The notes under the pieces were generated by a model. The model ran no database searches, had not been told where the DNA came from, and saw nothing but the letters and a program-made list of their open reading frames with translations. 64,000 nucleotides of DNA from contig WHVA01000006.1 of assembly GCA_015179125.1 (NCBI GenBank), positions 310,001-374,000 of the forward strand. Direction: 5' to 3'. A program made the translations under genes and the position numbers. The stretch is from Gautieria morchelliformis. Its lineage: Eukaryota; Basidiomycota; Agaricomycetes; Gomphales; Gomphaceae. Within the stretch, counting starts at the first letter, position 1, and every line of letters starts with the position of its first letter. Of the stretch, positions 7,836 to 56,774 are shown one piece after another.

Positions 7836-8900
7836 CTACGCTTTGCTCAACGATACAGCGCAGGGTGTGCCATCATTCCCTGCGGCGATGGCTCTGATGT
7901 CATCGTCATCGTCGCTGGACGCGGCGACGTGCGCGGGCTCAGGTGAGCCCTCGTTTAATGCAGCGGCTTCCGTTACTCTCGCCTCTGTCTTCTCAGCGAG
8001 GCATTTAGAGCATCTTGTCGCCGCTGTTCGCAGCTTGACATACCGGTCGGTGGGCAATAACTCACCGTCCGGATCTAAACGCGCATCCGCGTTCACGAAG
8101 ACGTGGTCCGGGTGATTGTCATCGCTCGTGTCACTCTCGTAGTAGCGCGACAGGCAGTGTGCTACCTTGTTCTCTACACCGTCAACATGAACGGTGTTGA
8201 AATTGAACCAGGAGAGAAACTCCCACCATCTGACCTGTCGCTCAGATAGGCTCTTTTGGGTCTCGAAGTACTCGAGTCCCTTGTGGTCTGTGACGAGGGT
8301 GAACCTTCGCCCCAGCAGTTTGTCCTCCCACTTCATGAGAGCCTCGAGCACCGCGATAGTCTCGTGCTCATGAGTCCGGTAGTGTTGCTGAGCAACGCTG
8401 AACTTCTTTGACAAGAAGCCGGCCGGTCGACAAGTTTTCCAGTCAGGACCTTGGCCGTAGACCGCACCGACGCCGGCTTTTGATCCGTCGGTGATCACCC
8501 AGATCGGTTCTGGGCACCTTGCGTCTACTGGATGCAGGATCGAGGCCTTACAGGCCAACGCCTTAATGCTTTGCCAGCATTTGTCGAGCAGTGGTGTCCA
8601 TTCGAATGGACGGTTATTACGAGCACAGCCCGATAGCGGGGTGGTATATGCGATAACATCCGGCATGTAGTCTGCCAGATACTGTACCAGCCCGAGGAAA
8701 CGCTGGACGTCGTTGAACGTCCGTGGCCTGCGCCACTCGCAGATGCGTTGCATCTTATCCTCGTCGGCATGTACCCCTCGGCCATCGATCATATGGCCGA
8801 GGCACTCCATTCGGATGGAGTAGAGGTCCACCTTTTTCTTGCTCAGAAAGAGGTGGTTCTTCCTCAGTCTGTCAAAGACAATGTAGAGGTGCTCTTCATG
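7836..8900 (-). CDS. B2 pol: RT thumb/connection and RNase H, distal to insertion A
   Basis: The frame carries the end of reverse transcriptase (CLGHMIDGRGVHADEDKM, FLGLVQYLADYMPD) and RNase H (VITDGSKAGVGAVYG, HEHETIAVLEALMKWEDKLLG, TDHKGLEYF). It continues the frame broken at 16305 on the far side of element A: removing A and one TCATG copy restores an uninterrupted reading frame. The frame stops at 7836 in the tether region before integrase. Confidence 0.85.
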   Translation of the reverse strand, partial: HEEHLYIVFDRLRKNHLFLSKKKVDLYSIRMECLGHMIDGRGVHADEDKMQRICEWRRPRTFNDVQRFLGLVQYLADYMPDVIAYTTPLSGCARNNRPFEWTPLLDKCWQSIKALACKASILHPVDARCPEPIWVITDGSKAGVGAVYGQGPDWKTCRPAGFLSKKFSVAQQHYRTHEHETIAVLEALMKWEDKLLGRRFTLVTDHKGLEYFETQKSLSERQVRWWEFLSWFNFNTVHVDGVENKVAHCLSRYYESDTSDDNHPDHVFVNADARLDPDGELLPTDRYVKLRTAATRCSKCLAEKTEARVTEAAALNEGSPEPAHVAASSDDDDDIRAIAAGNDGTPCAVSLSKA

Positions 8901-9593
8901 TGTTACAACCGTTCATTTCCAACTTCCGACCCTCAGTTCCGCCATACATTCCGCCTCTCCAATAGTTCCGCCCAACGTTCCGCCCCTCCGACATTTCCGA
9001 CATTCCGCCCCTTGTACATTTCCCTTGTTCTTTCGACTCTATTACTCGGACCCACCGGACCCACCTCGCCATCCATCAAAACCATATATCCGGTCACCCT
9101 TGTAGTTCGTTGTCAGATATGTTCTTCCGACCCCTTGTTCTTTGCCATTGTTCTACCTTACCCTGAACCCCCCTTGTAGTCCCATTGTTCCCAATAAGTT
9201 AGTTCCCACACATTGTACTCGACTTCCGCTTCCTCCGGAATTTGCTTAGTACAACACCATTACTTGTTGCTCTGCGCTTTGTATAAAAACCCCCTCATGT
9301 ATGTCTGTTATTCTGCAATCAGATAATCACCTTCGATACTTGATTTCCTTCGCTCCATCTCCTGTTTTTAGCACAGCGAGTCTAGCAAGATCTCAGTCTC
9401 TCTCTCAGCCTTCCGTCTTCCGCCCTCCGCCTCAGTTCCGACTCAAGTTCCGACCAAACCTCTGGTCCAGTACTTTCCAACTTCCGGCTCATTTCCGAAA
9501 TACCTAGGACGATAGTTCATTGGGGGCGCAACCTATAAGTTGAAGCCGCTGTCCTTTCCAGTTCCGACTTAGTGGAAATCTCGATACGTAACA
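8901..9593 (+). repeat. 5' LTR of element A
   Basis: 693 bp, TGTTAC..GTAACA. It holds a TATA box at 9282-9288 and about 16 copies of TTCCG on the plus strand against one on the minus strand. Both differences from the 3' LTR are TTCCG to TTCCA changes in this copy. Confidence 0.95.
9282..9327 (+). promoter_or_regulatory. LTR promoter and predicted self-primer
   Basis: TATAAAA lies at 9282-9288. About 30 bp downstream is AATCAGATAAT (9317-9327), at the expected RNA 5' end. This 11-mer is the exact reverse complement of the primer binding site at 9596-9606. In Tf1-type elements the first 11 nt of the mRNA prime reverse transcription in this way. The start site itself is inferred. Confidence 0.7.
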
Positions 9594-9595
9594 GT

Positions 9596-9606
9596 ATTAT
9601 CTGATT
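9596..9606 (+). other. Primer binding site, self-priming type
   Basis: ATTATCTGATT begins 2 bp after the 5' LTR and is complementary to 9317-9327 within R. No TGG-type tRNA complement is seen at this position. The same pair occurs in element C (45366-45376 and 45626-45636). Confidence 0.7.
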
Positions 9607-9626
9607 CCCACCCGATAACTATCACT

Positions 9627-11029
9627 ATGCCTCCTCGTACCACAGCTACTTCAGCTCGAGCAGGAGCTGTCGAAGCTCTCTCTTATTTTGGCAATCTTAG
9701 ATCCGCAGCGCCAAGGCACGCGGAACCCTCCAGCAGCTCTCGTGCCGACGATGAGCTTTCCGATGTTTTCCGCAACGTTTCGAAGAAGTTCCCGACGCTA
9801 ATCCCGACGACAATCCCGACTACGACGGGAATTCGACGAGTAGCAGCGGCGAACAAACAGCAGCGTCATACCGACGCCCAGCTCCACCACCACCACCTCC
9901 ACCAGGACCACCTCCAGGCGGCCCTCATGGCGGTCCTCCCGGCGGTCCTCCACCTCCAATTCCACCTCAGATTCCCGCCAACCCAGTTCCGCCTGCGCCA
10001 GTTCTGGATCTTGCACAAGCCATCGCCATGCTAGCCGGACAACTCCAGCGCCCGGCCCAAGCACCACCACGCCCCAAGACAAAGGTCCGCGAACCAGATC
10101 AGTTCGACGGTTCCGACCCCAAGAAGCTCCAGCCATTTCTGGTTCAGCTTCAACTCAATTTCCGTGATCGTCCCGACGCCTTTCCCGACGACGAACGAAA
10201 GGTCAATTATGCCCTTTCCTATCTCCGAGGCACGGCGCTCGACTATTTCGAACCCGCCCTCATGGATCCGTTCGCTCTCGTCGACTGGGCCGACGATTAC
10301 CCCAATTTCATTTCCGAACTCCGCAGCAACTTCGGACCATTTGATATGGAAGCCGATGCGGAGAACGAACTCGATAAGCTTCGCATGAAAGACACTCATA
10401 AGATAGCTAAATATATCGTCACGTTTCAGCAGCTCGCTCCTCGAGTCCAATGGGGAGAAGCCGCACTCCGACGCCAGTTTTACATGGGCTTGCCATCCCG
10501 CATCAAGGATGAAATTGCCCGCGTCGGAAAACCCGCCACCCTTACCGACCTCCGCAACCTCGCCCAATCCATCGATTCGCGCTACTGGGAAAGACACTCC
10601 GAGATTGCTCGTGAAACTTCCGCCCAGAGCAAGAACGACAAGTCTTCTGACAAGAAGTCTGATAAAGACAAGAAGAAGACCAATTCCGGAAACACCAACT
10701 CCGGAAACAACAACAACAACAGTTCCGGATCCAACTCCGGCAACCGGAACAACAACAACACCCCTCGGAACAACCAGGCCTCTGGTTCTAACACCAACGC
10801 CCGGAAGAGCACCCCGGATCTTTCCGACAAACTTGGGAAGGACGGAAAACTAACCCCTGTAGAACGCCAGCGACGCATGGACAACAACCTTTGCCTCTTC
10901 TGCGGCAAAGGAGGTCACGTCGCTCGCGACTGCACTCGCGCTTCCGCCTCCGCTGCTAAGGCCAAGGGCCGCGCAGCAAAGACGGAAGAGAAATCCGAAG
11001 CGGTTCCCGCTGCGGATTCAAAAAAATAG
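9627..11029 (+). pseudogene. Element A Gag, one frameshift near 9764
   Basis: The start is ATG 9627 (MPPRTTATSARAG), the same as in element C. A is one base shorter than C near 9764, which knocks the N-terminus out of frame. The rest is open from there to 11029. It has a proline-rich linker, a capsid domain (EPDQFDGSDPKKL, LNFRDRPDAFPDDERKV, ALSYLRGTALDYFEPAL, MGLPSRIKDEIARVG), an Asn/Ser/Gly-rich linker and a CCHC knuckle (CLFCGKGGHVARDC). The frame ends KK-stop inside the frameshift signal. An internal ATG at 10028 could start a shortened capsid protein. Gag forms the particle and packages RNA. Confidence 0.85.
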
Positions 11030-11066
11030 TCAGCAGTCCTCTGGCCTCCGCACGAGCCGAGGGCTG
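11020..11066 (+). promoter_or_regulatory. -1 ribosomal frameshift signal, gag to pol
   Basis: The heptamer A AAA AAA (11020-11026) is in the correct phase for -1 slippage and is followed immediately by the gag TAG (11027-11029). After a 7-nt spacer a stem-loop can form. CAGTCCTC (11034-11041) pairs with GAGGGCTG (11059-11066) over 8 bp with one U-G pair, and GGC (11043-11045) pairs with GCC (11056-11058). The -1 frame from the heptamer is open all the way into pol. Confidence 0.75.
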
Positions 11067-14000
11067 TGTTGACCCCATTCGTGCGACAAACGAGGTTAAA
11101 CTCAACGCATCCGCTCTTTCGTCCTCCGACTCTCTCTCTGTTCCGCTCACTTCCGACACAATTTCCGCACCCCCGTTTACAGCATTGGTCGACTCCGGTT
11201 CGACTCATTGTTTCCTCGATTCCGACTTTGTTTTGAAACATAAACTTCCGACCCGCAACATTCCGACTATTCCGCTCCGCCTTTTCGACGGGTCTTCCAA
11301 CACGGGAATTTCCCAAGTTGTGGATCTGTCTATCCGTTTCGCTACTGGGGACAACCATGAAGTTACGTTTTACGTTACTCCGCTAGATGCTAGCTGTTCC
11401 GTTGTACTAGGACACAATTGGCTCACCCGATATAATCCGTCGATTAACTGGGCATTGGGCCAAATACAGTTCCGTACCCCGGATCGACTTCTGTCTATTC
11501 CGACGTCTTCTGCAAAGATGGTTCAGGCCTCTTCTGCAACTCCGCTCGTGGATTCAGTTCCGCACTCCGGTCCCGCTTTAGCACCTCCGCCCCTCGAAGC
11601 CCCTCGAATTGCGCTCGTTTCCGCCACCGCTTTCCGCGTATTGCAACGGCAAGATGATACGACCATTTTCCAGCTTCACCTCTCCGATTCGGCTTCAGTC
11701 AAGGCTCGTTCCGCCTCGACTTCCGCTCCGGTCGACATGAGCTCAGTTCCGGAAGAATATCGTGACTTCCCGGACGTGTTCAATAAGGCCAAAGCCGACA
11801 AACCTGCTGAACATCGACCTTACGACTTGAAAATAGATTTGGAAGAAGGAGCATCTCCGCCCCTTGGACCGATCTACTCCCTTTCGCAAAGTGAACTCCT
11901 AACTCTCCGAGAGTTCGTCGATGAACATCTCAACATGGGCTTTATCCGCCCTTCGCTGTCTCCGCACGGCGCTCCGGTCCTCTTCGTCAAGAAGAAGGAT
12001 GGATCTCTCCGCCTCTGCGTCGATTTCCGCGGACTCAATGCCCTCACTAAAAAGGACAAATATCCGCTTCCGCGCATTTCCGATTTACTCGACACTCCCC
12101 GCAGGGCGAAGATCTACACCAAAATTGACCTACGGCACGCTTATCACCTTGTCCGCATCCGGGAAGGTGACGAGTGGAAAACCACTTTCCGCACCCGCTA
12201 CGGCGCTTTTGAGTGGACTGTCATGCCTTTTGGTCTAACCAATGCTCCCGCCGCTTTTCAGCGATTCATGAACGACGTATTTTCCGACCTCCTCGACGTA
12301 TGCGTCCTAGTCTACATCGACGACATCCTCATCTATTCCGACACACCGGAAAAACATCGGGAACATGTCCGCGAAGTACTCCGCCGTCTACGCAAACATC
12401 ATCTCTATGCAAAAGCAGAGAAATGCGAATGGCATCGCGACACGGTCGAATACCTCGGCTACATCCTCTCTCCAACAGGTCTTACCATGGCAGAGGACAA
12501 GGTCCAGGCAATTCAAGAATGGCCGGAACCCCGACGTGTTAAGGATGTGCAGTCTTTCCTTGGCTTCGCCAATTTTTACCGGCGTTTCATTTATAATTTT
12601 TCCGACATTACTGTTCCGCTCACGCGTCTCACCAGGAAGGGTGCCCCATGGAATTTCACTCCGGAATGCCGTTCCGCATTTGAAGCTCTCAAATCGGCCT
12701 TCACCACGGCTCCCATACTCGGTTTCTGGATTCCTGATGCCCAACTTGTACTCGAAACCGACGCTTCTGACTACGCGCTAGCCGCCATTCTTTCCATCAT
12801 TTCACCCGACGACGGAGAAATTCATCCGATCGCCTTTCATTCCCGCACCTTTTCCGCCCCGGAACTCAACTACGACGTCCACGATAAGGAACTACTTGCG
12901 ATTTTCGAAGCCTTCAAAATCTGGAGACATTACCTCGAAGGTCCAACTTATCCCATCGACGTTGTAACGGATCATAAGAACCTTGAGTATTTTGCAACCA
13001 CTAAGATTTTGACTCGCCGTCAAGTCCGCTGGTCTGAATACCTCTCACAGTTCAACATGGTGATCCGTTTCCGCCCCGGAAAGCTCGGAGCAAAACCCGA
13101 TGCGCTCACTAGACGTTGGGACGTCTACCCAAAAGAGGGAAGTAGCGACTATGCCAGCGTTAATCCGCACAATTTCCGCCCAGTATTCTCCACTGAGCAA
13201 CTGGCATCGTCCCTGCGTGCCACAGCATTGCAGTTTCCACTACTCCGCGCCTCAATTATTATGGACACCGAGTCTATCCATTCCGACATCCGTTCCGCAC
13301 TCCGTTCCGACCCCACCTCCGCAACCCACCTCGATTACCCCACCAGTCCTGGATGGTCCCTCGATTCCGACGGATTTCTCCGGTACAAGTCCCGGATTTA
13401 CGTTCCGGACACCAACGATCTACGACTTCGCGTGCTCCAGCAAAGCCACGATCATCCGCTCTCAGGACACCAAGGCCAGAACAAGACCCTCGACATAATC
13501 CGACGCACCTATACTTGGCCTCTCCTCCGCACAATGGTCCAAGACTACTGCAAGTCATGCACCACCTGTATGCGAGCCAAGCCTCAACGTCACAAACCCT
13601 ACGGCCTCCTGAAACAACTTCCGATCCCGGAACAACCGTGGAATTCGATATCCATGGATTTCATTGAGAAACTTCCTAAGTCATCCGGCTATGATACCAT
13701 TCTAGTGATCGTTGACCGCCTTACAAAGCAGTCCATCTTTATTCCGACCTACGACACCATAACTTCCGCCCAGCTCGCACAGCTCTTTGTGCTCCACGTC
13801 TTTTCCAAGCACGGAATCCCTTCCCATGTCACTTCCGACCGTGGATCCGAATTTGTGTCCTCCTTTTTCCGCACACTCGGCAAGGCTCTCGACATGAAGC
13901 TCCACTTCACCTCCGGTTATCACCCCGAAGGAGACGGACAAACGGAACGTACTAATCAGACCCTTGAGCAGTATATCCGCGTCTATTGCAACTACCAACA

Positions 14001-14733
14001 TAGCAATTGGTCCGACCTTCTTCCGCTCGCGGAATTTGCCTACAACAACGCGCCTTCCGCTACCACCGGAATTTCACCCTTTTATGCCAACAAGGGCTAC
14101 CACCCGAATCTCGCCATCCACCCTGAACGCGACCTCGCCTCTGCAAGAGCCCGAGATTTCGTTGTGGAACTTGACGACCTTCACCAGCACCTCCGAGAGA
14201 ACATTACCGCTGCCCAGAAGAGATACCAAACTTCCGCCGATCGGAAACGCCTTCCGCAACCGGCATTCGAGATAGGCGACAAAGCCTTTGTCAAAGCGGA
14301 AAGCTTCCGCACCACTCGCCCCTCGAAGAAGCTCTCTGAGAAATACCTCGGTCCTTATGAGATCATCGCTAAGGCCGGCAGTCGTTCTTTCACCCTCAGA
14401 CTTCCTGACAAAATGCGCGCAGTACATCCGGTATTCCATGTCTCCATGCTTGAACCCGCAGTTCCGAATACAATTCCGAATCGAGAACAACCTCCGCCTC
14501 CGCCAGTCGTCATCGACGGAGAACCGGAATATGAGATTTCGGAAATTCTCAACTCCAAGCTCGACAGAAGATACCGCTGCCAACTCCAGTACCTAGTCAA
14601 GTGGGCAGGCTATGAAAACACTGACGAAGAGACTTCGTGGATTTCCGCCACGGAACTTGACCACGCCTCTGACCTCGTCTCTGATTTCCACAAGTCATAT
14701 CCTGACAAGCCTGGCCCCATTTCCACGCCCTAG
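11020..14733 (+). CDS. Element A Pol: protease, RT, RNase H, integrase, chromodomain
   Basis: This is an uninterrupted frame of about 1238 codons in -1 phase to gag. Domains in order are: protease (VDSGSTHCFLDSDF), RT with FPFGL-type MPFGLTNAPAAFQRF and active site YIDD (about 12315), RNase H (LETDASDYALAAIL, KELLAIFEAFKIWRHYL, TDHKNLEYF), the integrase HHCC finger (HPLSGHQGQNKT, CKSCTTCMRAK), the DDE core (SMDFIEKLPKS, SDRGSEFVSSFF, EGDGQTERTNQTLEQY), the GPY/F module (KYLGPYEIIAKAG) and a C-terminal chromodomain (YEISEILNSKLDRR, YLVKWAGY). All catalytic motifs look intact. It is expressed as Gag-Pol through the frameshift signal. Length and order are normal for chromoviruses. Confidence 0.95.
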   Translation, partial: KKIVSSPLASARAEGCVDPIRATNEVKLNASALSSSDSLSVPLTSDTISAPPFTALVDSGSTHCFLDSDFVLKHKLPTRNIPTIPLRLFDGSSNTGISQVVDLSIRFATGDNHEVTFYVTPLDASCSVVLGHNWLTRYNPSINWALGQIQFRTPDRLLSIPTSSAKMVQASSATPLVDSVPHSGPALAPPPLEAPRIALVSATAFRVLQRQDDTTIFQLHLSDSASVKARSASTSAPVDMSSVPEEYRDFPDVFNKAKADKPAEHRPYDLKIDLEEGASPPLGPIYSLSQSELLTLREFVDEHLNMGFIRPSLSPHGAPVLFVKKKDGSLRLCVDFRGLNALTKKDKYPLPRISDLLDTPRRAKIYTKIDLRHAYHLVRIREGDEWKTTFRTRYGAFEWTVMPFGLTNAPAAFQRFMNDVFSDLLDVCVLVYIDDILIYSDTPEKHREHVREVLRRLRKHHLYAKAEKCEWHRDTVEYLGYILSPTGLTMAEDKVQAIQEWPEPRRVKDVQSFLGFANFYRRFIYNFSDITVPLTRLTRKGAPWNFTPECRSAFEALKSAFTTAPILGFWIPDAQLVLETDASDYALAAILSIISPDDGEIHPIAFHSRTFSAPELNYDVHDKELLAIFEAFKIWRHYLEGPTYPIDVVTDHKNLEYFATTKILTRRQVRWSEYLSQFNMVIRFRPGKLGAKPDALTRRWDVYPKEGSSDYASVNPHNFRPVFSTEQLASSLRATALQFPLLRASIIMDTESIHSDIRSALRSDPTSATHLDYPTSPGWSLDSDGFLRYKSRIYVPDTNDLRLRVLQQSHDHPLSGHQGQNKTLDIIRRTYTWPLLRTMVQDYCKSCTTCMRAKPQRHKPYGLLKQLPIPEQPWNSISMDFIEKLPKSSGYDTILVIVDRLTKQSIFIPTYDTITSAQLAQLFVLHVFSKHGIPSHVTSDRGSEFVSSFFRTLGKALDMKLHFTSGYHPEGDGQTERTNQTLEQYIRVYCNYQHSNWSDLLPLAEFAYNNAPSATTGISPFYANKGYHPNLAIHPERDLASARARDFVVELDDLHQHLRENITAAQKRYQTSADRKRLPQPAFEIGDKAFVKAESFRTTRPSKKLSEKYLGPYEIIAKAGSRSFTLRLPDKMRAVHPVFHVSMLEPAVPNTIPNREQPPPPPVVIDGEPEYEISEILNSKLDRRYRCQLQYLVKWAGYENTDEETSWISATELDHASDLVSDFHKSYPDKPGPISTP

Positions 14734-14838
14734 TCATTTCCGACCTCATTTCCGACGCCCATTGATTCTTACAGTCCTCAAGTCATTTGTCAAAATCCGA
14801 TTAATTTTCCGTTACTCTATTTCCGACACTTCAAGAAA

Positions 14839-15484
14839 TTATCTACAAGTCCTTGACACCCCTACTCCTTCCCCATTGTCTCCGCCTCGACCTCCTTTTC
14901 CGCTTCCGGCTCTTTTCCGCTTCTTAGTCGCGGGATTTTCCGGCCCCAGTTCACGGAGTTCTAACATCCGATTCAACTTCTCCTTTCGAGCCTTCTGGAA
15001 TGCGTCCGCTCGAGTTTTCCGTTCCGCCACAAGGTTCACCGGGGTCGCAATCTCCTTTTGCTTCCCTTTTCCTTCCGGAGTCGGTGTACTTTCCGCCGAA
15101 CCTTCCGAGTCTGACTCTGACTCGTCCTGAACATGATTCTGGAAGAACTCTAGTTAATTTCAAAATCATTTCCGCCGGACATTTCCGACTCACCTGATCC
15201 CTTTCCGCTTTCTCCGCAGCCGCTTTCTCTGCAGCAGCCTTGTCCGCAGCAGCCTTCCGTGCCGCGTTCCGTTTCCGTTTTTCTTCACGAACGCGCTCCT
15301 CCTCGCGGCGTTCGCGCTCTTTCCTCTCCTGCTCCTTCCGCTCCTTCTCCCGACGTTCTTTCTCTTTCCGCGCAGCTTCCTCAGCCTCGCGTTTCTCGGC
15401 CATTTCCTTTTGCGCGAGCATATCAGCGAAGTGCTGTTTCATCTCCGCGCTGGACATCTTAGAGAAATCTACTGGGGCACTCAT
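14839..15484 (-). CDS. Antisense spliced gene inside element A, charged coiled-coil protein
   Basis: Exon 1 is 15484-15194 (97 codons, phase 0) and exon 2 is 15126-14839 (95 codons plus stop). The 67-bp intron 15193-15127 has a GTGAGT donor, a TTCAG acceptor and a TTAAC branch-like site. Without splicing the frame changes character and loses the conserved-looking tail. The 192-residue product begins MSAPVDFSKMSSAEMKQHF, has a long Glu/Lys/Arg-rich helix rich in Ala, an acidic DESESDSEG segment, and a basic C-terminus (ATKKRKRAGSGKGGRGG), which suggests a nuclear protein. A TATA-like AAATATAGG lies about 40 bp upstream of the ATG, with CACGTG beyond it. It fills the gap between pol and the 3' LTR. 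The function is unknown. Confidence 0.7.
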
Positions 15485-15593
15485 GATGGAATAGGGAGAA
15501 GACGCGTTTGTCTTTCAGCCTATATTTCAAACTCCGACGCGTTTGTTCACAGGTCACGTGATTCCGACTTGTGGTCTCGCGGGGCTCGACCTT

Positions 15594-15603
15594 AGAAGGG
15601 AGA
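15594..15603 (+). other. Polypurine tract of element A
   Basis: A purine run (AGAAGGGAGA) ends 3 bp before the 3' LTR (TGTTAC at 15607), the expected plus-strand primer site. Confidence 0.7.
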
Positions 15604-15606
15604 TAC

Positions 15607-16299
15607 TGTTACAACCGTTCATTTCCGACTTCCGACCCTCAGTTCCGCCATACATTCCGCCTCTCCAATAGTTCCGCCCAACGTTCCGCCCCTCCGACAT
15701 TTCCGACATTCCGCCCCTTGTACATTTCCCTTGTTCTTTCGACTCTATTACTCGGACCCACCGGACCCACCTCGCCATCCATCAAAACCATATATCCGGT
15801 CACCCTTGTAGTTCGTTGTCAGATATGTTCTTCCGACCCCTTGTTCTTTGCCATTGTTCTACCTTACCCTGAACCCCCCTTGTAGTCCCATTGTTCCCAA
15901 TAAGTTAGTTCCCACACATTGTACTCGACTTCCGCTTCCTCCGGAATTTGCTTAGTACAACACCATTACTTGTTGCTCTGCGCTTTGTATAAAAACCCCC
16001 TCATGTATGTCTGTTATTCTGCAATCAGATAATCACCTTCGATACTTGATTTCCTTCGCTCCATCTCCTGTTTTTAGCACAGCGAGTCTAGCAAGATCTC
16101 AGTCTCTCTCTCAGCCTTCCGTCTTCCGCCCTCCGCCTCAGTTCCGACTCAAGTTCCGACCAAACCTCTGGTCCAGTACTTTCCGACTTCCGGCTCATTT
16201 CCGAAATACCTAGGACGATAGTTCATTGGGGGCGCAACCTATAAGTTGAAGCCGCTGTCCTTTCCAGTTCCGACTTAGTGGAAATCTCGATACGTAACA
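15607..16299 (+). repeat. 3' LTR of element A
   Basis: 693 bp, matching the 5' LTR except at two positions seen by eye. It holds 18 TTCCG on the plus strand and one CGGAA. It is followed by the TCATG duplication at 16300-16304. Confidence 0.95.
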
Positions 16300-16304
16300 T
16301 CATG

Positions 16305-27174: not shown

Positions 27175-29797
27175 TCACTCCTCCGCTGCCAGTGAATCGC
27201 TCTCCCATTTGTCCGATATCCGCTTCAAGCTCTGAAGAATTCGTTGCAGATCGCGTCGACGGACGGGAGTCATACTAGGGTCATGCATACTGTCTCCGGT
27301 GTGCATGGAATGCTCCAAGACACGTATCAGCTCACGGAAGGTCTGTTTGAAGTCGCTCCCATCAACATCGTGCCGCTCGATCCATGTGGACCCTACGAAC
27401 GTCCAGGACCAGTAAGCGAGGTTTTGCTGGGTGGCACTGCTGGAAGCGAAGAACGTCGTCAGTCCCTCAGCTAGCCCCAAATCCACCATCCTATCCCGTG
27501 CCTCTGGGTCCCTTGCAAGGCCCACCAGAGCAAGCGAGGAAGCATTGGAAAGATCGCCACACGGGGAATTCAAGTTCCGGATGAGGGCACGCACACCACA
27601 CTGTCCAAGGATGGTCTTTCTATGTTCCCGCCAGTGCATCATTTCTCCAAGGACCTGTGTCGCTTTGATCTGCACGGGTTCCGTCGCTGGCGTCTCCAGG
27701 AGGGGAATGATTGTAGACGATAGTTTCGGGACCGTCGATTGCGAATCAAAGGAAAGTAGTCGTCGGAAGGTTTCCAAGACCCTGCACGTCAAGCTTTCGG
27801 ACTTGGAGAATGAAAGCACGGCGATTAAAGCCGTGGATGCCCCGCTAGGCCACGACGGGACATTATTTTCAATGAGTAGTTTGCAGATAACCAATCCCCC
27901 AGCCTCGAAATCGGTTCCTCCAAGGCAGTACCGCGACGCGGTGTCGTGGGGGTTGTCTTTTATGATGTCGACGACCCCGCGTATGAGTAGTGTTTGGGCG
28001 TCTTGTCGCCTCGTTTCCTCGTCTCTATAATGGACCACTTCGTGCTTCTGGAAATCAAGAACGAAGACCCCGAGTGCTACACCTATAGCGCAGGTGACAG
28101 GGTCTCCCATGGTATACGGCAACCCCAAGAGTCGAAGCAGGCATGCAGCCACTGCCGGACGAGTCGAAGTCATCGACGCTTCACCGAATTCGGCACCCCA
28201 GAGCGCAATAGTGTCGACCAACGCCCAGACAGAGAAACTCTGCAAATGGGCCTTTCCTGAAGAATGCCGATTAAGAAGCTCCACTATGACACCGAACTCC
28301 CTATTCGCGCGACGACCCTCTGCTCTGTCGCATTGAGTACTGGCACAGAGGTATAAGGCGAGTGCGTCAAGGTCCCAGCCTTCAGATACGAGCTGTTCCA
28401 GGGTGAAGTCACCCCATGAAACAATCCAGGCTCGCCAGTGAAAGCGACTGAGGATGGGAGCTATGTCGCTTTGTGTGCAATGGCGCAGGGCGCAAAACAT
28501 GGAGGCAAGGTATGGGATGCTGTTTGCAGCATGTCGCCTGAAGGCGACGGAGGCCGACTCGGACGATGGGTCCTCAATGAAGGCAGGCTCCAGTCTATCC
28601 ACTAGCAGGTGGATAGCACCACTCTCGCGAAGCATTGACGTTGCACTGAAGTCTGGCCTAAGAGAGGATGTCGCTCTCAGAGCTACGTCGACCACCTCGA
28701 GGTTGTGCGAGGTAGCCACCAGCCAGCCTATGGCTCCAACGTTGAGAACGTGACATGCTTCATCGATCCCAGCACGCTCCATTTCCGAGTTCGACGGAGC
28801 GTGATTCAATTGGAATGAAGGGATGGGGGTCCGAAGGCGAATGGCACTTAACAAAGCGCGTGCGTACTCCGTTAATGCGGATCCTTGGCAGTACGCCCGC
28901 CGAACCTGCATGCGCACAGTCAAAGAAAATGGTGTTTTGTAGGGGCATGTAAGGTCAAAGAGCGGTGCGATCGTTGTAATGACAAAAAATCCTAATAAAA
29001 GGACGGTGAGGGTGATCATTATGTACCCAATATCAGGGTCGATGGACCACAGGAGTATGTCGAGCCCTACGAAAAACAAGGAAAACCCGACCTGTAAAAG
29101 AATGGGAAGCGTGGAAATGATCTCGGATACTTTCCAAGTAACAAGACCAGCATATCTGAAATGACGCTGCCTAGCGTGTGTTTCCACGCGGCCCGGACGA
29201 TTCAGAGTGTATGCTTGGAGCCATTGCTTAGCGAGCATGGCGAAAAAGGCCGCGGAGAGGCTGCACATCAGACTCGAGAACCAGATGGCGTTAATCCACC
29301 ATATATAAGATGATGGTTGGAAGGGGGTAATGAGCGACGATAACGAAACCCCAGAGAGCGAGTCTACAATGCTATTGTTTGTGGGTAGCAACGTATCGAG
29401 CTGTTGCGTTATGTGTAAAAGGAGGGTGGTGGTTGTCGTTTGAGGGTCAGGACTTAACATTTTGTAGGAGTCAACGATAAAGGCTGTAAGGACGGCTGAG
29501 AAAAGGCCGGCCTGAGGCCAAGTTTTGAGCCGCGCCCATAAACGTGTCATATACAACCTTGCTCACCATGATGAGCAAGACGTCTAGGGAATCGTTCCAA
29601 CTTTTCAACATGGCCTTGTCGTATTCCATCGACTCCTTGGCATACATAGACCATAGCTTGCCTTCGCTACGCAGGTCATTCCCGAGAGCTTGATCAGCTT
29701 CTAGACCCAACTGTGGAGCAAAAGTATGCCTCGATGCAGAACGGTAACGGCCTTTCACGACGGGCTGACGCAGCAACCCAAGCAAGTCAGTACGCAT
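27175..29797 (-). CDS. DUF6535-type multipass membrane protein with C-terminal helical repeats
   Basis: Exon 1 is 29797-29567 and exon 2 is 29511-27175, joined by a 55-bp GTGAGC..CAG intron in phase 0. The product is about 855 residues. The junction yields DVLLIM then AGLFSAVLTAFIVDSYK, the hallmark of the basidiomycete DUF6535 family. Preceding residues (W..YAKESMEYDKAMLKSWN) are also typical. Membrane segments follow around AGLFSAVLTAFIV, the INAIWFSSLMCSLSAAFFAML helix, LPILLQVGFSLFFVGLDILL and IMITLTVLLLGFFVITTIAPLF. The rest (about 550 residues) is soluble and helical, with ARM-like character. The biological role is unknown. The start is the first ATG and an upstream exon is possible. 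Confidence 0.85.
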
Positions 29798-44340: not shown

Positions 44341-44361
44341 GGAACCTGACCTTACTCAGCG

Positions 44362-45345
44362 ACTTGTCGTTCTTGCTCTGGGCGGAAGTTTCACAAGCGA
44401 TCTTGGAATGTCTTTCCCAGTAGCGCAAATCGATGGATTGGGCTAGGTTGCGGAGGTTGGTTAGGGTGGCGGGTTTTCCAACGCGGGCAATTTCATCCTT
44501 GATCCGGGATGGCAGGCCCATGTAGAATTGGCGTCGGAGTGCGGCTTCTCCCCATTGGACTCGAGGAGAGAGCTGCTGGAAAGTGACGATGTATTTAGCT
44601 ATCTTATGAGTGTCTTTCATACGAAGCTTATCGAGTTCATTTTCCGCATCGGCTTCCATATCAAATGGTCCGAAGTTGCTGTGGAGTTCAGAAACGAAAT
44701 TGTGATAATTGTCAGCCCAGTCGATGAGGGCGGGTTCGAACAGTCGAGAGCCATGCCTCGGAGATAGGAAAGGGCGTAATTGACCTTTCGTTCGTTGTCG
44801 GGAAAGGCGTCGGGATGATCACGGAAGTTGAGTTGAAGCTGGACAAAAAAATGCTGGAGCTTCTTGGGGTTGGAACCGTCGAATTGATCCGGTTCATGGA
44901 CTTTTGTCTTGGGGCGTGGAGCTTGGGCTGGGTGTTGTAGTTGGCCGGCTAGCATGGCGATAGGTTGTGCAAGATCCGGAACTGGCGCGGGCGGAACTTG
45001 GTTGGCGGGAATCGGAGGTGGAGGACCGCCTGGGGGGCCGCCATGAGGGCCACCGGGAGGTAGTCCTGGTGGCGGTGGTGGAGGTGGTGCTGGGCGTTGG
45101 AATGACGCTACTGTCTGTTCACCGCTGCTGCTCGATGAGTTTCTGTCGTAGTTGGGATTGTTGTCAGGATTATCATCGGGAACTTCTTCGAAGCGTTGCG
45201 GAATAGCGTCGGAAAGCTCATCGTCGGCATGAGAGCTGCTGGAGGGTTCTGCATGCCTTGGTGCTGCGGATATAAGGTTGCCAAAATAAGAGAGAGCTTC
45301 GACAGCTCCTGCTCGAGCTGAAGTAGCTGTGGTACGAGGAGGCAT
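44362..45345 (-). pseudogene. Element C Gag, truncated and frameshifted
   Basis: It begins MPPRTTATSARAG as in A. The frame is intact through the Pro-rich linker and capsid start (EPDQFDGSNPKKL, ALSYLRGMALD), then shifts near 44745 where bases are missing relative to A. It continues in another frame (MEADAENELDKLRMKDTHK, MGLPSRIKDEIARVG) to the truncation. It is not functional. Confidence 0.8.
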
Positions 45346-45378
45346 AGTGATAGTTATCGGGTGGGAATCAGATAATAC

Positions 45379-46000
45379 TGTTACGTATCGAGATTTCCGC
45401 TAAGTCGGAACTGGAAAGGACAGCGGCTTCAACTTGTACGTTGCGCCCCCAATGAACTATCGTCGTAAGTATTTCAGAAATGGGTCGGAAGTCGGAAAGT
45501 ATTGAACTAAGAGTTGGTTGGAACTTGAGTCGGAACTGAGACGGAAGGCGGAGAGATGGAGGTCTTGCTAGACTCACTGTGCTAAGAACAGGAGATGGAG
45601 TGAAGGAAATCAAGTATCCAAGGTGATTATCTGATTGCAGAATAACAGACATACATGAGAGGCTTTTATACAAAGAGCTGAGGCAACATGTAATGAGATA
45701 GAATTTTGGGGGGTTGCGGAAGTCAGGTAGACATACGTGGGAACTAACTAATTGGGAACAATGGGACTACAAAGGGGGTTCAGGGTAAGGTAAAACAATG
45801 GCAAAAGAACAAGGGGTCGGAAAACATATCTGACAACGAACTACAAGGGTGACCAGATATATGATCTTGATGAACGATGAAGCGGGTCCAGTGGGTCCGA
45901 GTAATAGAGTTGAAAGAACAAGGGAGTAGCACAAGGGCGGAATGTCAGATATATTGTGTGCGGAACTGAAGGTTGGAATCGGAAATGCACGGTCGTAACA
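45379..46000 (-). repeat. 5' LTR of element C
   Basis: It is related to but clearly diverged from the A LTR. It retains the TATA-like TATAAAAG (minus strand near 45665) and the self-primer 11-mer (45626-45636). Its outer flank starts TCCGC. Confidence 0.85.
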
Positions 46001-52030: not shown

Positions 52031-53620
52031 TTAATATATTCTGATTCTCTCGTTGAGGATTCTCACTCTAGGACTAGGAAGTCCTTTAGTGAGAAGATCG
52101 GCTAGCATGTGTTCCGTTGGTAGGTACACAAGCTTAATTTCTTCATCTTCGACTATATCTCGGATGAAATATAATCTAATGTCGAAATGCTTGGTCCTCG
52201 TGTGTTGTTGAGTGCCATAGACGATGGCAATGGCTGATTGATTGTCTGAATAAAGTTTGATGGGACAATTCAGCGGTTGGAATACTTCAGAAATAAAGTG
52301 GCGCATCCATAAGGCTTCTTTGCTCGCATGAGTCAGAGCAACGAATTCGGCTTCAGTTGATGATAGGGCTACTATGGATTGTTTTTGACAACTCCATGAT
52401 ACTGTCCCTCCATCAATCTGAAAAATATAAGCCGAGTATGAGTGCCTGTGCTCTTGAGAAGCCCAATCCGCATCTGAATACCCAATGAGGCCGTCTCGAT
52501 TTTTCCCAAGTGTCAATTTGTAGTCCATCGTGCCTTTTAGATATTTAAAGACACGTTTGACTGCATGCCAATGTGTTGGACCTGGGTTTTCGAGGAATTG
52601 AGAAAGTAATGACACTGCGAACGCAATGTCCGGTCGAGTGGCTACTGCTGCCCACATCAATGATCCTATCGCTTGTCTGTATGGAATTCTTGACATCTTC
52701 TGTTTGTCTTCATCTGTGGAAGGGCATTGGTCCCTGGATAATTTAACGGCTGGGTCGAGAGGCGTGGAAAATGTTTTGGCATCATCCAGATTGAATTTTT
52801 TGATGATTTTCTGGATGTATGTGGCTTGTGATATTGCAATCGATTTGTTATTCCAATCTCTTTCGATTTTGAGGTTCAAAAGCCAGTGAATCTCGCCTAG
52901 ATCTTTCATACTGAAGATCTGGGCAAGATCATGCTTTACCCCATCGAGGATTGGTTGACTCTCAGCTGTGATAGTGAGGTCGTCTACTGCTGTCGCAATA
53001 ATCGCATGCCCTCTCGGTCCACGTCTACAAAATACAGCTCCATCCGAAGCTGATTTAGTGAATCCTAACTTGAGAAATTCACCACTCAGACGTTTGTACC
53101 ATTCCCTTCCAGATTGTTTGAGGCCGTAAAGTGCTTTCTTCAGCAGGAGGACATCATCTTTGTCTCCGGTCTCATATCCATACGGCTGTCTCATGTAAAT
53201 AGGTTCTGGCAGTGTAGCATTCAAATACGCACTGTCCACATCCATTTGGTGAATAGGCCAGTTATTCCTGGCAGCAATGGCACATATAATCCGTAAGGAA
53301 GTCATCCGAGCAACAGGTGCATAGGTTTCATTGTAGTCAACTCCAAAACTTTGTGTAAAGCCTTGGGCGACCATCCTCGATCTAGGTGTGATGGGTTCAC
53401 CTTCTGGATTGCGTTTCCAGAGGAATACCCATCTATTTCCGACAATATTTGCCCCAGGAGGTGGTTTAACCACTTCCCATACACCTTTGTCGAGTAGCAC
53501 CTTATACTCTTTATCCATCGATGCTTTCCACATAGGATCATTTAAGGCTTCATCTGCATTGCTAGGCTCGGTCTGATTTAAATCCGGCAGCACATTATCT
53601 TTGTTTTGATCGGAGGTGAA
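52031..53620 (-). CDS. Copia E reverse transcriptase and RNase H
   Basis: About 520 residues. RT motifs: WVFLWKRNPEGEP, MVAQGFTQSFGVDYNETYAPVARM, IHQMDVDSAYLNATLPEPIYM, LLLKKALYGLKQSGREWY. The catalytic site is AVDDLTIT, with Ala in place of the usual Tyr of YVDD. F shares this, so it is lineage-specific rather than a mutation. RNase H: YSDADWASQEHRHSYSAY, VALSSTEAEFVALTHASKEALW, TKHFDIRLYFIRD, MLADLLTKGLP. It lies in a different phase from the upstream Gag-integrase frame. Confidence 0.9.
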   Translation of the reverse strand, partial: FTSDQNKDNVLPDLNQTEPSNADEALNDPMWKASMDKEYKVLLDKGVWEVVKPPPGANIVGNRWVFLWKRNPEGEPITPRSRMVAQGFTQSFGVDYNETYAPVARMTSLRIICAIAARNNWPIHQMDVDSAYLNATLPEPIYMRQPYGYETGDKDDVLLLKKALYGLKQSGREWYKRLSGEFLKLGFTKSASDGAVFCRRGPRGHAIIATAVDDLTITAESQPILDGVKHDLAQIFSMKDLGEIHWLLNLKIERDWNNKSIAISQATYIQKIIKKFNLDDAKTFSTPLDPAVKLSRDQCPSTDEDKQKMSRIPYRQAIGSLMWAAVATRPDIAFAVSLLSQFLENPGPTHWHAVKRVFKYLKGTMDYKLTLGKNRDGLIGYSDADWASQEHRHSYSAYIFQIDGGTVSWSCQKQSIVALSSTEAEFVALTHASKEALWMRHFISEVFQPLNCPIKLYSDNQSAIAIVYGTQQHTRTKHFDIRLYFIRDIVEDEEIKLVYLPTEHMLADLLTKGLPSPRVRILNERIRIY

Positions 53621-56280
53621 GGTGTACTGATGGCAAGGTTATAATCACTGATGCCGTCAGTGACAGAGGATAAATCTTGTTCGAATAATTTGTCTTGATG
53701 GTCCTCAATGTCCTCGTAAGCTAGTGTAGTGATATCTGCACCAGCATGTCTCTTGGTTTGAGATCTTGTTACGGGACCACTTGGGGCCGGCTGCACCTGC
53801 TGCTGACGGATTCTCTCGCTTCTCCTTGTTGGAGCAGCTTCTTTAGGTCTGGCATCAACAGTCTGACTGGGTTGCAGCTCTTTCAGACGTTCCTCTGGTT
53901 CATCATCATCAATTTCCTCGATCTTTGCCTCTTCGCTGACTAAGCGGCTAGGCATAGGTGCTGGCGCCGAGATGGCCTGTACCATTTTTCTGGACGTAGG
54001 TAGCTGTGACTCTTCAATAGAAATGATTGGAGCTTTGCCCCCCTTCATCTCTGAGTCAAATATAACATTCCGCTCGACAGAAACCTTCTGAGAGTCAGGC
54101 CAGTAGATGCAGTGACCATGGCTCTGTCCAGAGATTCCTATCCACCGAGCTCTTTTGGCACGGGCTGCTAGTTTGTTTCCCTCTTTGACTTTAACGTAGA
54201 CTTCAATTCCCCACACGTGTATGTCTTTCAGGTTCGGTTTCTCGTGATGGATCATTTCAAAAGGGGTTTTGCCTGGCAAAGCTCTTGTATGTGTCCGATT
54301 CCTAAGATAGTTGGCGTGCAAAATTGCATGCCCCCATAGAGTCTTAGGAAGACTTGATTCCAATAGCATGGCACGAGCTCTTTCAACTAGAGTTCGGTTT
54401 AAACGTTCAGCAACACCATTTGACTCTGGGGTGTCGTGCACGGTTAACTGATGCTTCGTGCCTTGCTTGGCCAAATGCTGTTCAAATTCTGAGCTTGTGT
54501 ATTCGCCCCCTCTGTCGGAAACAAGTGCTTTGATGTGCATATTCCTCTGTCGAAGCATCAAGGCCTCGTAGAGTTTGTATTTTGAAAATGCTTCCGATTT
54601 GTTTGCCATCAAATAGATAACCGATTCTCTTGAGTAGTCGTCAATGAAAGACACATAATAGGATTTCTTGTCAATTGTGGAGTGTCTCGCTGGTCCCCAG
54701 ACATCAGAATAAATTCTGTCACCGAATTTTGATGATCGGCTTCTGGGTTCCTGAGGAAGTGATTTACGTGCAATCTTCGCCTGAATGCACGCATCGCAAA
54801 CAACCTTGTCACCTTTTGAGCTCAATTCAATGCCTAATATCATGCCACGGTTGAGCAAGTGCTGTAGGGACTTTTGTGAAATGTGCCCCATTTTTTGATG
54901 TATTTCCATGGCTGATGCGCATACATGCGCTTCGGCACTTGTGTGTTGTAAATCAAATTGATATAAGCCATTCAGCTTCGGTGCTTGCATCAATATCCTG
55001 CCTTTACGATTGGATATTGTGCATTTCTGATCAGCTATTTGTGTGTTATAGCCTGCATCATCGCACCGGCCGATCGAGATGAGGGTAACAGCCATTTTTG
55101 GCGCGTAGAACGTATCCTTCAATGTAATGTTCACAGTCTTATCTCCAACCTTATTAGATAGCACGAGTGAGCCTGAACCGAAGGCATCAAAAGTGCCTTT
55201 GTTGGCTGCACGAATTGTGCGCGGCTGTGAGAATGGACTGTAATCCCTCAATAAATTCTTGTGAGGGGTCATATGTGCGGTCGTTCCAGTGTCGAGGATA
55301 ACAACAGTGTCCAGAGATAAACTACTCAAATTAGAGCAGTCGAAGTTGGCGAAAGCGGCTGGACTGCCACTCTCATCCTCTTCAGAGGACACTTCTTCGG
55401 CAACATTCGCCTTGGCTTTGCCCTTCTTCTTTTTGGCTTTCGCTTTCTTCTTCTGACGTGGCCCCTGGCCTTCTTTACCACCTCCTTTAGCCCAGCAACT
55501 TTCTATAGCATGTCCAGGCTTGTGGCAATTAGTGCATGCAAGCACCTTCGGGTCTTTCCGGCCCTTCTGCCCTTTCGTAGATGAACCAATAAATGCCTGC
55601 TCTTCTTGTGAAATATTGAGGGTCTTTCTCCTGTCATATTGAGCCTTTAGTACTCTGATAATATCATCAGGCACTAAGGGCATTCCACATTCTTCGAGCG
55701 ACGTGGTAAGGGCATTCATAACTGCCTCATAGGAGGGTGGAAGTGATGCAAGGATAATGTCGGTGAACTCTCCTTCAGAAATTCTGGCTCCCATCTCATT
55801 GAGATGAGCATAGAGGTCTTGGGCCTTGTCCAAGTGATCTCTCAAGTCTCCATCCTCAGGACACCTCATACTGCGAAGCTGTCTCTGTAGGTTGGTGAGG
55901 ACCATCTTGGGCTTTTTGGTCATCTCATTGACCAATGCATCCCAGACTTCTTTTGCTGTATGTCTCTTCTGTAGCATCAGGGCTAGTGACTCTGACACTG
56001 AGACGATTATTTGGGTTTTTGCCTGTCCTTCTCTGGCAAGATATTTCTCCAGCTTCTCCTCAGCCTTCTCTATCTGAGTTTCCTCAGCTTCTGTGAGAAT
56101 ATGGCCTGGGGGCATGACTGGAGGATCAGGAGGTCGAATGGCTCTCCCTTCAATATGCCTGAGTAGATTTTTGGACTCAAAATAACTTGTGAGAGTAGCT
56201 CGCCACAGAGGCCAATTACTTCCATCTGTTGCAAGCTTCTCCACACCCAAAAGCTTCTGCGAAGTGTCTGCGGGGCCCAT
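53578..56280 (-). CDS. Copia E Gag, protease and integrase
   Basis: It starts at ATG 56280 (MGPADTSQKLLGVEKLATDG), just inside the LTR. The order is Gag (UBN2-type: NWPLWRATLTSYFESKNLL, LRDHLDKAQDLYAHLNEMG), a CCHC knuckle (CTNCHKPGHAIESC), a Lys-rich stretch, protease (VVILDTGTTAHMT), GAG-pre-integrase HHCC (HQKMGHISQKSL, CDACIQAK), and the integrase core (SDVWGPARHSTIDK, SDRGGEYTSSEFEQHL, NGVAERLNRTL), with an Arg/Pro/Gln-rich tail. The frame runs out at 53578, while RT continues in another phase. In F the same region reads in one phase, so E carries a +1 or -2 type change near 53610. Confidence 0.9.
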   Translation of the reverse strand: MGPADTSQKLLGVEKLATDGSNWPLWRATLTSYFESKNLLRHIEGRAIRPPDPPVMPPGHILTEAEETQIEKAEEKLEKYLAREGQAKTQIIVSVSESLALMLQKRHTAKEVWDALVNEMTKKPKMVLTNLQRQLRSMRCPEDGDLRDHLDKAQDLYAHLNEMGARISEGEFTDIILASLPPSYEAVMNALTTSLEECGMPLVPDDIIRVLKAQYDRRKTLNISQEEQAFIGSSTKGQKGRKDPKVLACTNCHKPGHAIESCWAKGGGKEGQGPRQKKKAKAKKKKGKAKANVAEEVSSEEDESGSPAAFANFDCSNLSSLSLDTVVILDTGTTAHMTPHKNLLRDYSPFSQPRTIRAANKGTFDAFGSGSLVLSNKVGDKTVNITLKDTFYAPKMAVTLISIGRCDDAGYNTQIADQKCTISNRKGRILMQAPKLNGLYQFDLQHTSAEAHVCASAMEIHQKMGHISQKSLQHLLNRGMILGIELSSKGDKVVCDACIQAKIARKSLPQEPRSRSSKFGDRIYSDVWGPARHSTIDKKSYYVSFIDDYSRESVIYLMANKSEAFSKYKLYEALMLRQRNMHIKALVSDRGGEYTSSEFEQHLAKQGTKHQLTVHDTPESNGVAERLNRTLVERARAMLLESSLPKTLWGHAILHANYLRNRTHTRALPGKTPFEMIHHEKPNLKDIHVWGIEVYVKVKEGNKLAARAKRARWIGISGQSHGHCIYWPDSQKVSVERNVIFDSEMKGGKAPIISIEESQLPTSRKMVQAISAPAPMPSRLVSEEAKIEEIDDDEPEERLKELQPSQTVDARPKEAAPTRRSERIRQQQVQPAPSGPVTRSQTKRHAGADITTLAYEDIEDHQDKLFEQDLSSVTDGISDYNLAISTPSPPIKTKIMCCRI

Positions 56281-56286
56281 AACCCT

Positions 56287-56774
56287 TGTTAGCAACTAGG
56301 GGCTATGGCAGGGAAGGTTCGGTAGAGTTCTTAGAAAGCTAGAATCAAATATACTCTCTCAGTGAATTTATTGTCACTGATGTATTAATACAGTACCTAG
56401 AATCAAATATACTACATGATTTTCAGTCAACATGCTATGTAAATATGAAGAATACTACTCGCCTCTCTCAGTGAATTTATTGTCACTGAGAGAGGAGTGT
56501 AATCCTGTCTCAGAAGGCATATACTTGCACCCGGCCCTTTAGCGCCCAAGGGCTCGCGCGTCGAAGTCGTTTCAAACTCCGCTGGGTGCAGCCGCCTGTG
56601 AAAGTAGAAATAACAGAATGAAATGGAGAGATAGAGAGTGACTAGAAAATTTCGAAAATAAGCAGAGAAATGGATGCATGGTACAAGAACAGTATGAGAA
56701 AATATTGAAACACCACACAATAAATTGAATATATTATGCTTGATTTTGGTGCAGGAGCATAAATGCACCCAACA
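56287..56774 (-). repeat. 5' LTR of copia E
   Basis: 488 bp, and I see no difference from 51530-52017. The Gag ATG begins 7 bases inside this LTR boundary (GGTTATGGG). No standard tRNA-type primer site was identified. Confidence 0.95.

Follow-up and report, generated by a model that had tools for sequence, protein, structure and literature searches.

The DNA analyzed here, referred to as the window, is a stretch of 64,000 nucleotides from the genome of Gautieria morchelliformis. Its plus strand carries a 7.4-kb LTR retrotransposon, designated element A, which is enclosed by a 5-bp target duplication (TCATG at 8896-8900 and 16300-16304) and whose two LTRs are 99.7% identical to each other, with 2 mismatches. 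Pfam matches within element A include gag, protease, RT, RNase H, integrase and a chromodomain. Its LTRs, its gag, the position of the integrase after RT-RNase H and the chromodomain identify it as a Ty3/gypsy chromovirus. Between the pol stop (14733) and the start of the 3' LTR (15607) lies a gene in antisense orientation, and the whole element is covered by a short repeated motif. The features of the locus are:

8901..16299, plus strand: element A, a Ty3/gypsy chromovirus (LTR pair, Pfam domains, flanking duplication)
8901..9593, plus strand: 5' LTR of element A, 693 bp (LTR-pair comparison)
11185..14733, plus strand: pol ORF with the chromodomain at its end (ORF list, Pfam)
14839..14912, minus strand: remnant of the 3' end of antisense exon 2, out of frame past a deletion (comparison with copy L050)
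14913..15138, minus strand: conserved part of antisense exon 2 remaining in the window copy (226 nt identical to copy L050)
15139..15193, minus strand: probable intron, 55 bp, GTGAGT...TTCCAG with the conserved acceptor (splice-site comparison over 50 loci)
15194..15484, minus strand: antisense exon 1, 97 codons (open in most copies; dN/dS, where it could be measured, about 0.1-0.25)
15485..15606, minus strand: upstream region of the antisense gene, the presumed promoter, with a polypurine tract at 15594-15605 (82-94% identical between copies)
15607..16299, plus strand: 3' LTR of element A, 693 bp (LTR-pair comparison)
8901..16299, both strands: element-wide TTCCG/CGGAA array of 140 sites, 113 of them as TTCCG on the plus strand (motif counts)

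The gag region of element A consists of two overlapping ORFs, 9627-10034 without a Pfam match and 10028-11029 with a capsid match. Elsewhere the window contains an inverted 5' fragment, comprising LTR and gag, from an element related to element A at about 44361-45952 (84-87% identical), a minus-strand ORF of 793 codons with a DUF6535 domain (27178-29556; Pfam E 3e-46), and two pieces of copia-type elements, at 52034-56295 on the minus strand and at 60516-62318 on the plus strand.

Exon 1 of the antisense gene begins with an ATG at 15484, is open through 15194 and is followed by a GTGAGT donor in phase 0. The original prediction had joined this 97-codon exon, through a 67-bp GT..AG stretch (15193-15127, TTCAG acceptor), to 95 further codons whose stop ends at 14839, and all of these elements are present in the sequence as described. 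A second acceptor, TTCCAG, ends at 15139, 12 nt upstream of the TTCAG acceptor and in the same phase. Splice sites were compared over 50 modelled loci (L048-L097). The GTGAGT donor was retained in 50 of 50, and in five further loci, while the homologous acceptor AG was found in 49 of the 50 loci at the TTCCAG site as against 35 of the 50 at the downstream TTCAG site (both hand counts; alignment gaps displaced the anchor in L087, L095 and L096). By this comparison the conserved intron is probably the one of 55 bp rather than that of 67 bp, and exon 2 would therefore be longer by four residues (NHVQ). Upstream of exon 1, the presumed promoter contains CACGTG at 15555-15560. The TATA-like box that had been pointed out in this region, GAAATATAGG in the window, reads GAAAGATAGG in several other copies and is not conserved.

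Exon 2 of an undeleted copy was compared with the genome, and at least 135 places were matched (135 scored of 721 candidates), with identities of 63-100%. The matched part was free of in-frame stops in 110 of the 135 scored places (hand count). A second query, from the lineage of L096, scored 138 of 743 candidates, and many of its matches had open frames of 408-425 aa. Both exons were open, with at least 89 codons in exon 1 and at least 280 codons in exon 2, in 37 of the 50 modelled loci, and intron length in these 37 ranged between 51 and 56 bp. Random stops and lost splice sites, the pattern that would have spoken against the gene, were not what the copies displayed. In six pairs of copies dN/dS in the spliced frame was 0.09-0.25 (Fisher p 8e-27 to 4e-11), compared with 0.7-3.6, and stops, in the other frames of the same pairs; the exception was the antisense frame that shares third positions, with dN/dS of 0.15-0.37 and 1-9 stops. 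Judged by these substitution patterns, the antisense gene is under purifying selection at the protein level; its splice signals are retained as described above. That this chromodomain Ty3/gypsy family has a gene of two exons in antisense orientation between its pol and its 3' LTR, as the original prediction had it, is almost certain.

Two other accounts of the region bear on this conclusion. According to the first, there is no gene, and the region holds a chance antisense ORF or nothing beyond an unspliced ORF of 177 residues; indeed, the window copy has an open frame of 177 aa when it is read without splicing. However, constraint is found in exactly the spliced frames, the splice signals are conserved, and in 40 of the 43 loci having an exon 1, reading through the intron gives a shorter product than splicing does (for most copies like that of the window 177-178 residues, for other lineages 104-190). 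On the last result the unspliced reading was rejected, and the account as a whole is largely refuted and extremely improbable. In L076, L095 and L096 the unspliced frame remains open, so splicing is not required there; for the family at large the antisense gene is probably spliced. In the gene lineage of L095, L096 and L098 the intron measures 51 bp, and since it contains no in-frame stop in L095 and L096, spliced and unspliced mRNA of these two would both give nearly the whole protein. According to the second account, the antisense RNA is the main actor, limiting the element via double-stranded RNA with the protein being secondary, as has been proposed for antisense transcripts of LTR elements (PMC7264820). 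Protein-level constraint and frame conservation are, however, not expected of an RNA effector alone, and we consider this account very unlikely.

The 192-residue product that had been read from the window is not the product of the family. In comparison with copy L050, exon 2 of the window lacks 602 bp, which is not a multiple of three, at the junction 14912/14913, with a GCGGAAAA run ending at each of the two breakpoints. The 192-residue product is a truncation because this deletion shifts the frame in exon 2; undeleted copies encode about 390 residues, including a Zn2Cys6-like cluster, and both the cluster and the second helix are gone from the window copy through the deletion. A DNA search of the fungus's own genome (122 Mb, 1,113 contigs) with the 646-base query spanning 14839-15484 returned, among the best 40 of 524 candidates, only the window copy as an end-to-end match; in the other scored copies the match breaks off between query positions 570 and 591, which corresponds to about 14915-14894 of the window. 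Of seven copies that have longer flanks and continue past that point, six keep the spliced frame open to a common end, and the seventh, L008, has a frame break in exon 1. Element A of the window is a recent insertion whose antisense gene was cut short by deletion, and, as the deletion joins two GCGGAAAA runs, the TTCCG array may itself be a promoter of deletions.

Comparison of the antisense gene with the rest of the element revealed different degrees of divergence. Copies L050 and L096 are 98.9% identical in pol and 97.7% in the LTR, against 72.4% in exon 2. In 100-base windows their identity is 94-100% in the LTR and 98-100% in pol, goes down to 64-85% in the antisense gene, and is back up about 200 bases past the antisense gene's stop. 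Between these two copies dS amounts to 1.3 and 1.0 for the two exons as against 0.03 for pol, and fast evolution in place of exchange was rejected on this difference. Among the 49 loci in which gene, pol and LTR were all available, the antisense gene formed seven clusters at 85% identity, with 34, 6, 3, 2, 2, 1 and 1 members. Pol and LTR were at least 97% identical while exon 2 was at most 82% identical in 44 of 595 between-cluster pairs, and the three largest clusters have backbones at least 97.7% alike with exon 2 only 71.5-76.7% identical. For L097 a pol dS of 0.75 was set aside as the product of a frameshift; in blastn the pol of this copy shares 92.5-94.6% identity with the best of its listed partners. 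Trees of gene, pol and LTR were compared for 48 loci. The distribution of gene types requires one change on the gene tree, 11 on the pol tree (shuffled mean 13.0) and seven on the LTR tree (13.0); on the LTR tree gene type is clustered, as none of 500 shuffles gave so low a count. The starred branches by themselves require no more than one change in pol and two in the LTR, and the pol tree has one starred branch of 42. The trees point the same way as exchange and are weakly supported, and the main weight lies on the identity profiles. Taken from these profiles, the antisense gene is very probably a cassette exchanged between nearly identical element backbones, with template switching between co-packaged RNAs as the likely route. 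The gene alleles predate the backbones now carrying them.

In the protein of undeleted copies, the part from exon 1 contains many E, K, R and A residues and is followed by an acidic stretch, KKRK and the cluster motif; after the motif come more basic residues and then a long, probably helical stretch that has neither G nor P, and the acidic end of the protein is conserved. The cluster, CX2CX6CX10CX2CX6C, is complete in 14 of 15 diverse members and short of a single cysteine in the remaining one; five of the six cysteine positions never vary among the 15, and the sixth is kept in 14. Its spacing fits the Zn2Cys6 pattern CX2CX6CX5-12CX2CX6-8C. The Pfam family Zn_clus (PF00172) was matched at E below 1 by 12 of the 15 members, with a best value of 0.0015; the score printed for one match was 14.9 bits, below the curated cut-off of 21, and the product is therefore called Zn2Cys6-like and not a member of the family. 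In Zn2Cys6 clusters the CX2CX6C half with basic residues usually comes first, whereas here it is the second. With the fungal Zn2Cys6 proteins the product shares six cysteines in permitted spacing, basic residues and a following helix; it differs in its score below the cut-off where printed, in the order of the two halves and in being encoded by a retroelement. No Pfam family other than the weak Zn_clus was matched, and a PDB search with the product gave one match, a coil at E 0.53, which is not meaningful. On these sequence features the antisense product is a probable DNA-binding protein.

Within this genome the protein recurs at the places described above. Outside it no relatives were found: a search scoring residues 100-310 had none among its 458 candidates at E 1e-3, and another, scoring 7,992, had none at E 0.01, although an unannotated spliced gene could escape such a search; viral contigs likewise gave none. 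As a control, an RT query in the same protein collection scored 7,922 of 7,982 at E 1e-20, and the matches listed include relatives from Leucocoprinus (81%), Lentinula (79%) and Agaricus (78%) and from one further contig (89%). The control finds Agaricomycete relatives, so fungi are covered by the same collection; these RT matches would put the host in or close to that group.

The TTCCG/CGGAA motif occurs 140 times in element A, compared with a simulated mean of 26.2 (sd 5.0, maximum 43 in 1000 simulations), and its strand ratio is 113:27, about 4:1 (p 1e-13). The 3' LTR has 19 sites where 1.9 are expected, 18 of them as TTCCG, and pol has 59 where 12.2 are expected; the excess in gag (16 against 4.2) is weaker and without strand bias (8:8). 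Flanking bases favour G[GT]CGGAA, and 14 same-orientation pairs occur at spacing 12. Outside element A, the window holds 102 sites in 56.6 kb (57:45 between the strands), 25 of which lie in or around the related 5' fragment at about 44361-45952, at 22:3 in the fragment's own sense. The copia-type pieces (52-56 and 60-62 kb) and a gag/protease piece (0.5-1.7 kb) fall in bins with 1-2 sites per kb. Within the window, the dense array in one orientation is specific to element A plus this one related fragment, and its enrichment is firm. Seven distant copies keep 66 of the 124 motif sites present in the gene of L050, compared with 18-25% of other pentamers, and amino-acid-matched motif codons are kept in 157 of 209 cases against 121.7 expected, a 1.3-fold excess over comparisons that share one reference and are not independent. 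In the LTR the motif is kept in 98 of 139 cases, no better than CpG-free pentamers (0.69) and above other CpG pentamers (0.55). Retention of the motif is thus a suggestive and not a decisive result. Different cluster types occur on shared backbones, and the array consequently does not change with the gene.

As a rule, Zn2Cys6 proteins make contact with CGG triplets, CGG being their usual half-site. The occurrence of a Zn2Cys6-like protein and an oriented CGGAA array in one element suggests self-recognition. We propose that the antisense gene has its promoter next to the 3' LTR and that its transcript is spliced; the persistence of the intron would be explained because the sense genomic RNA does not expose an antisense intron to splicing. 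The roughly 390-residue product would be a nuclear DNA-binding regulator, whose cluster would bind the CGGAA half-sites spread across its own element, which are at their densest in the LTRs and the antisense region, and this binding would control the element's transcription or hold off silencing. To the whole proposal, a conserved and exchanged antisense gene with a product that acts as self-recognising regulator of its element, we assign a probability of roughly 0.45. Recognition of CGGAA by the antisense protein is, for its own part, a tentative suggestion from sequence at less than even odds. An extended version, in which the protein recognises a CGGAA code that includes the coding parts, thereby escaping silencing or setting expression, and in which old alleles are exchangeable as under rare-type advantage, is rather unlikely.

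The array could also act in the sense RNA or cDNA, in packaging, reverse transcription or escape from RNA silencing, and the antisense protein would then bind RNA or be unrelated. The strand bias of the array, overall and above all in the 3' LTR, and the presence of sites inside coding DNA are consistent with such a role, but CGG is the DNA half-site of Zn2Cys6 proteins. Nor does the bias require RNA, as the array of VANC21, which is a DNA array, is described as one-sided too (PMC5735166), and we regard action in the sense RNA as quite improbable. The VANC proteins of the VANDAL transposons of Arabidopsis provide the proposed likeness for self-recognition, that is, an element's own protein together with a dense motif array in one orientation, as described for VANC21 (PMC5735166). 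On the VANC side, the element is a DNA transposon, the domains are different (DUF1985 and DUF287 were absent among the Pfam matches of our product at E below 1), the motif is mainly non-coding and in tandem repeats, and anti-silencing is established for VANC only.

Antisense genes at this position are already known from plant elements and from fungal Boty elements. The aORF-3R of plant Ty3/gypsy elements (Grande gene23, RIRE2, Retand TRP28) is described as antisense, located between pol and the 3' LTR and present in many copies; the product of Grande is reported to be nuclear, that of Retand, TRP28, is predicted to bind DNA, and tandem-repeat arrays are described in that region for about half of the Retand clusters (PMC7264820; PMC11963269). 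The antisense ORF of Grande is further described as transcribed from its own promoter. The antisense ORF of the window and of the modelled loci occupies the aORF-3R position, and the likeness extends to orientation and to presence in many copies. The differences are the fungal chromovirus host element, the conserved intron, the cassette exchange, a weak Zn_clus match as the only domain, and an element-wide pentamer array in place of tandem repeats. The original prediction considered such a gene unusual in a fungal chromovirus; the gene does reside in one, but brtn, an antisense additional gene of the Boty elements of Botrytis cinerea, also fungal Ty3/gypsy elements, had already been reported (PMC7264820, PMC8365987). 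Both are antisense additional genes of fungal Ty3/gypsy elements, with brtn compared by its description only. The literature, covered as titles and abstract openings and thinly for subscription journals, yielded no antisense gene of a fungal retrotransposon that is spliced or encodes a zinc cluster; so far as this coverage goes, the family is set apart as new by its intron, its cluster, its cassette exchange and its array.

Among retroviruses, HBZ is described as a nuclear antisense protein that regulates sense transcription (PMC3185765). An antisense gene near the 3' LTR is shared with HBZ and APH of the HTLVs, where the nuclear product regulates the element. Their proteins are bZIP or related, whereas the product here is Zn2Cys6-like and had no Pfam match to a bZIP domain at E below 1; no homology is claimed, and repression belongs to the HBZ side only. 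In an alternative to self-recognition, the antisense product is an accessory protein of the nucleus comparable to HBZ or Grande gene23, which would regulate transcription or integration by way of host partners and its helices and would not read the CGGAA array, the array having some other cause. The charged helical ends, the basic stretches and a cluster below the Pfam cut-off agree with it, as do position and orientation, which are as in the plant genes, one of which has a nuclear product (PMC7264820). It leaves unexplained the saturation of the element with one CGG-type pentamer, and we hold it to be on the unlikely side.

What the antisense accessory genes of LTR retrotransposons do is not known (PMC7264820), and this family offers a handle on it, given that a recognisable cluster of DNA-binding type and a dense, simple candidate target are found in the same element. 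The exchange of one gene among nearly identical elements implies that diversity in this gene is favoured in some way, a question worth asking in its own right. If the proposed regulation by self-recognition is true, the family would constitute a retrotransposon counterpart to VANC self-recognition and to the retroviral antisense regulators.
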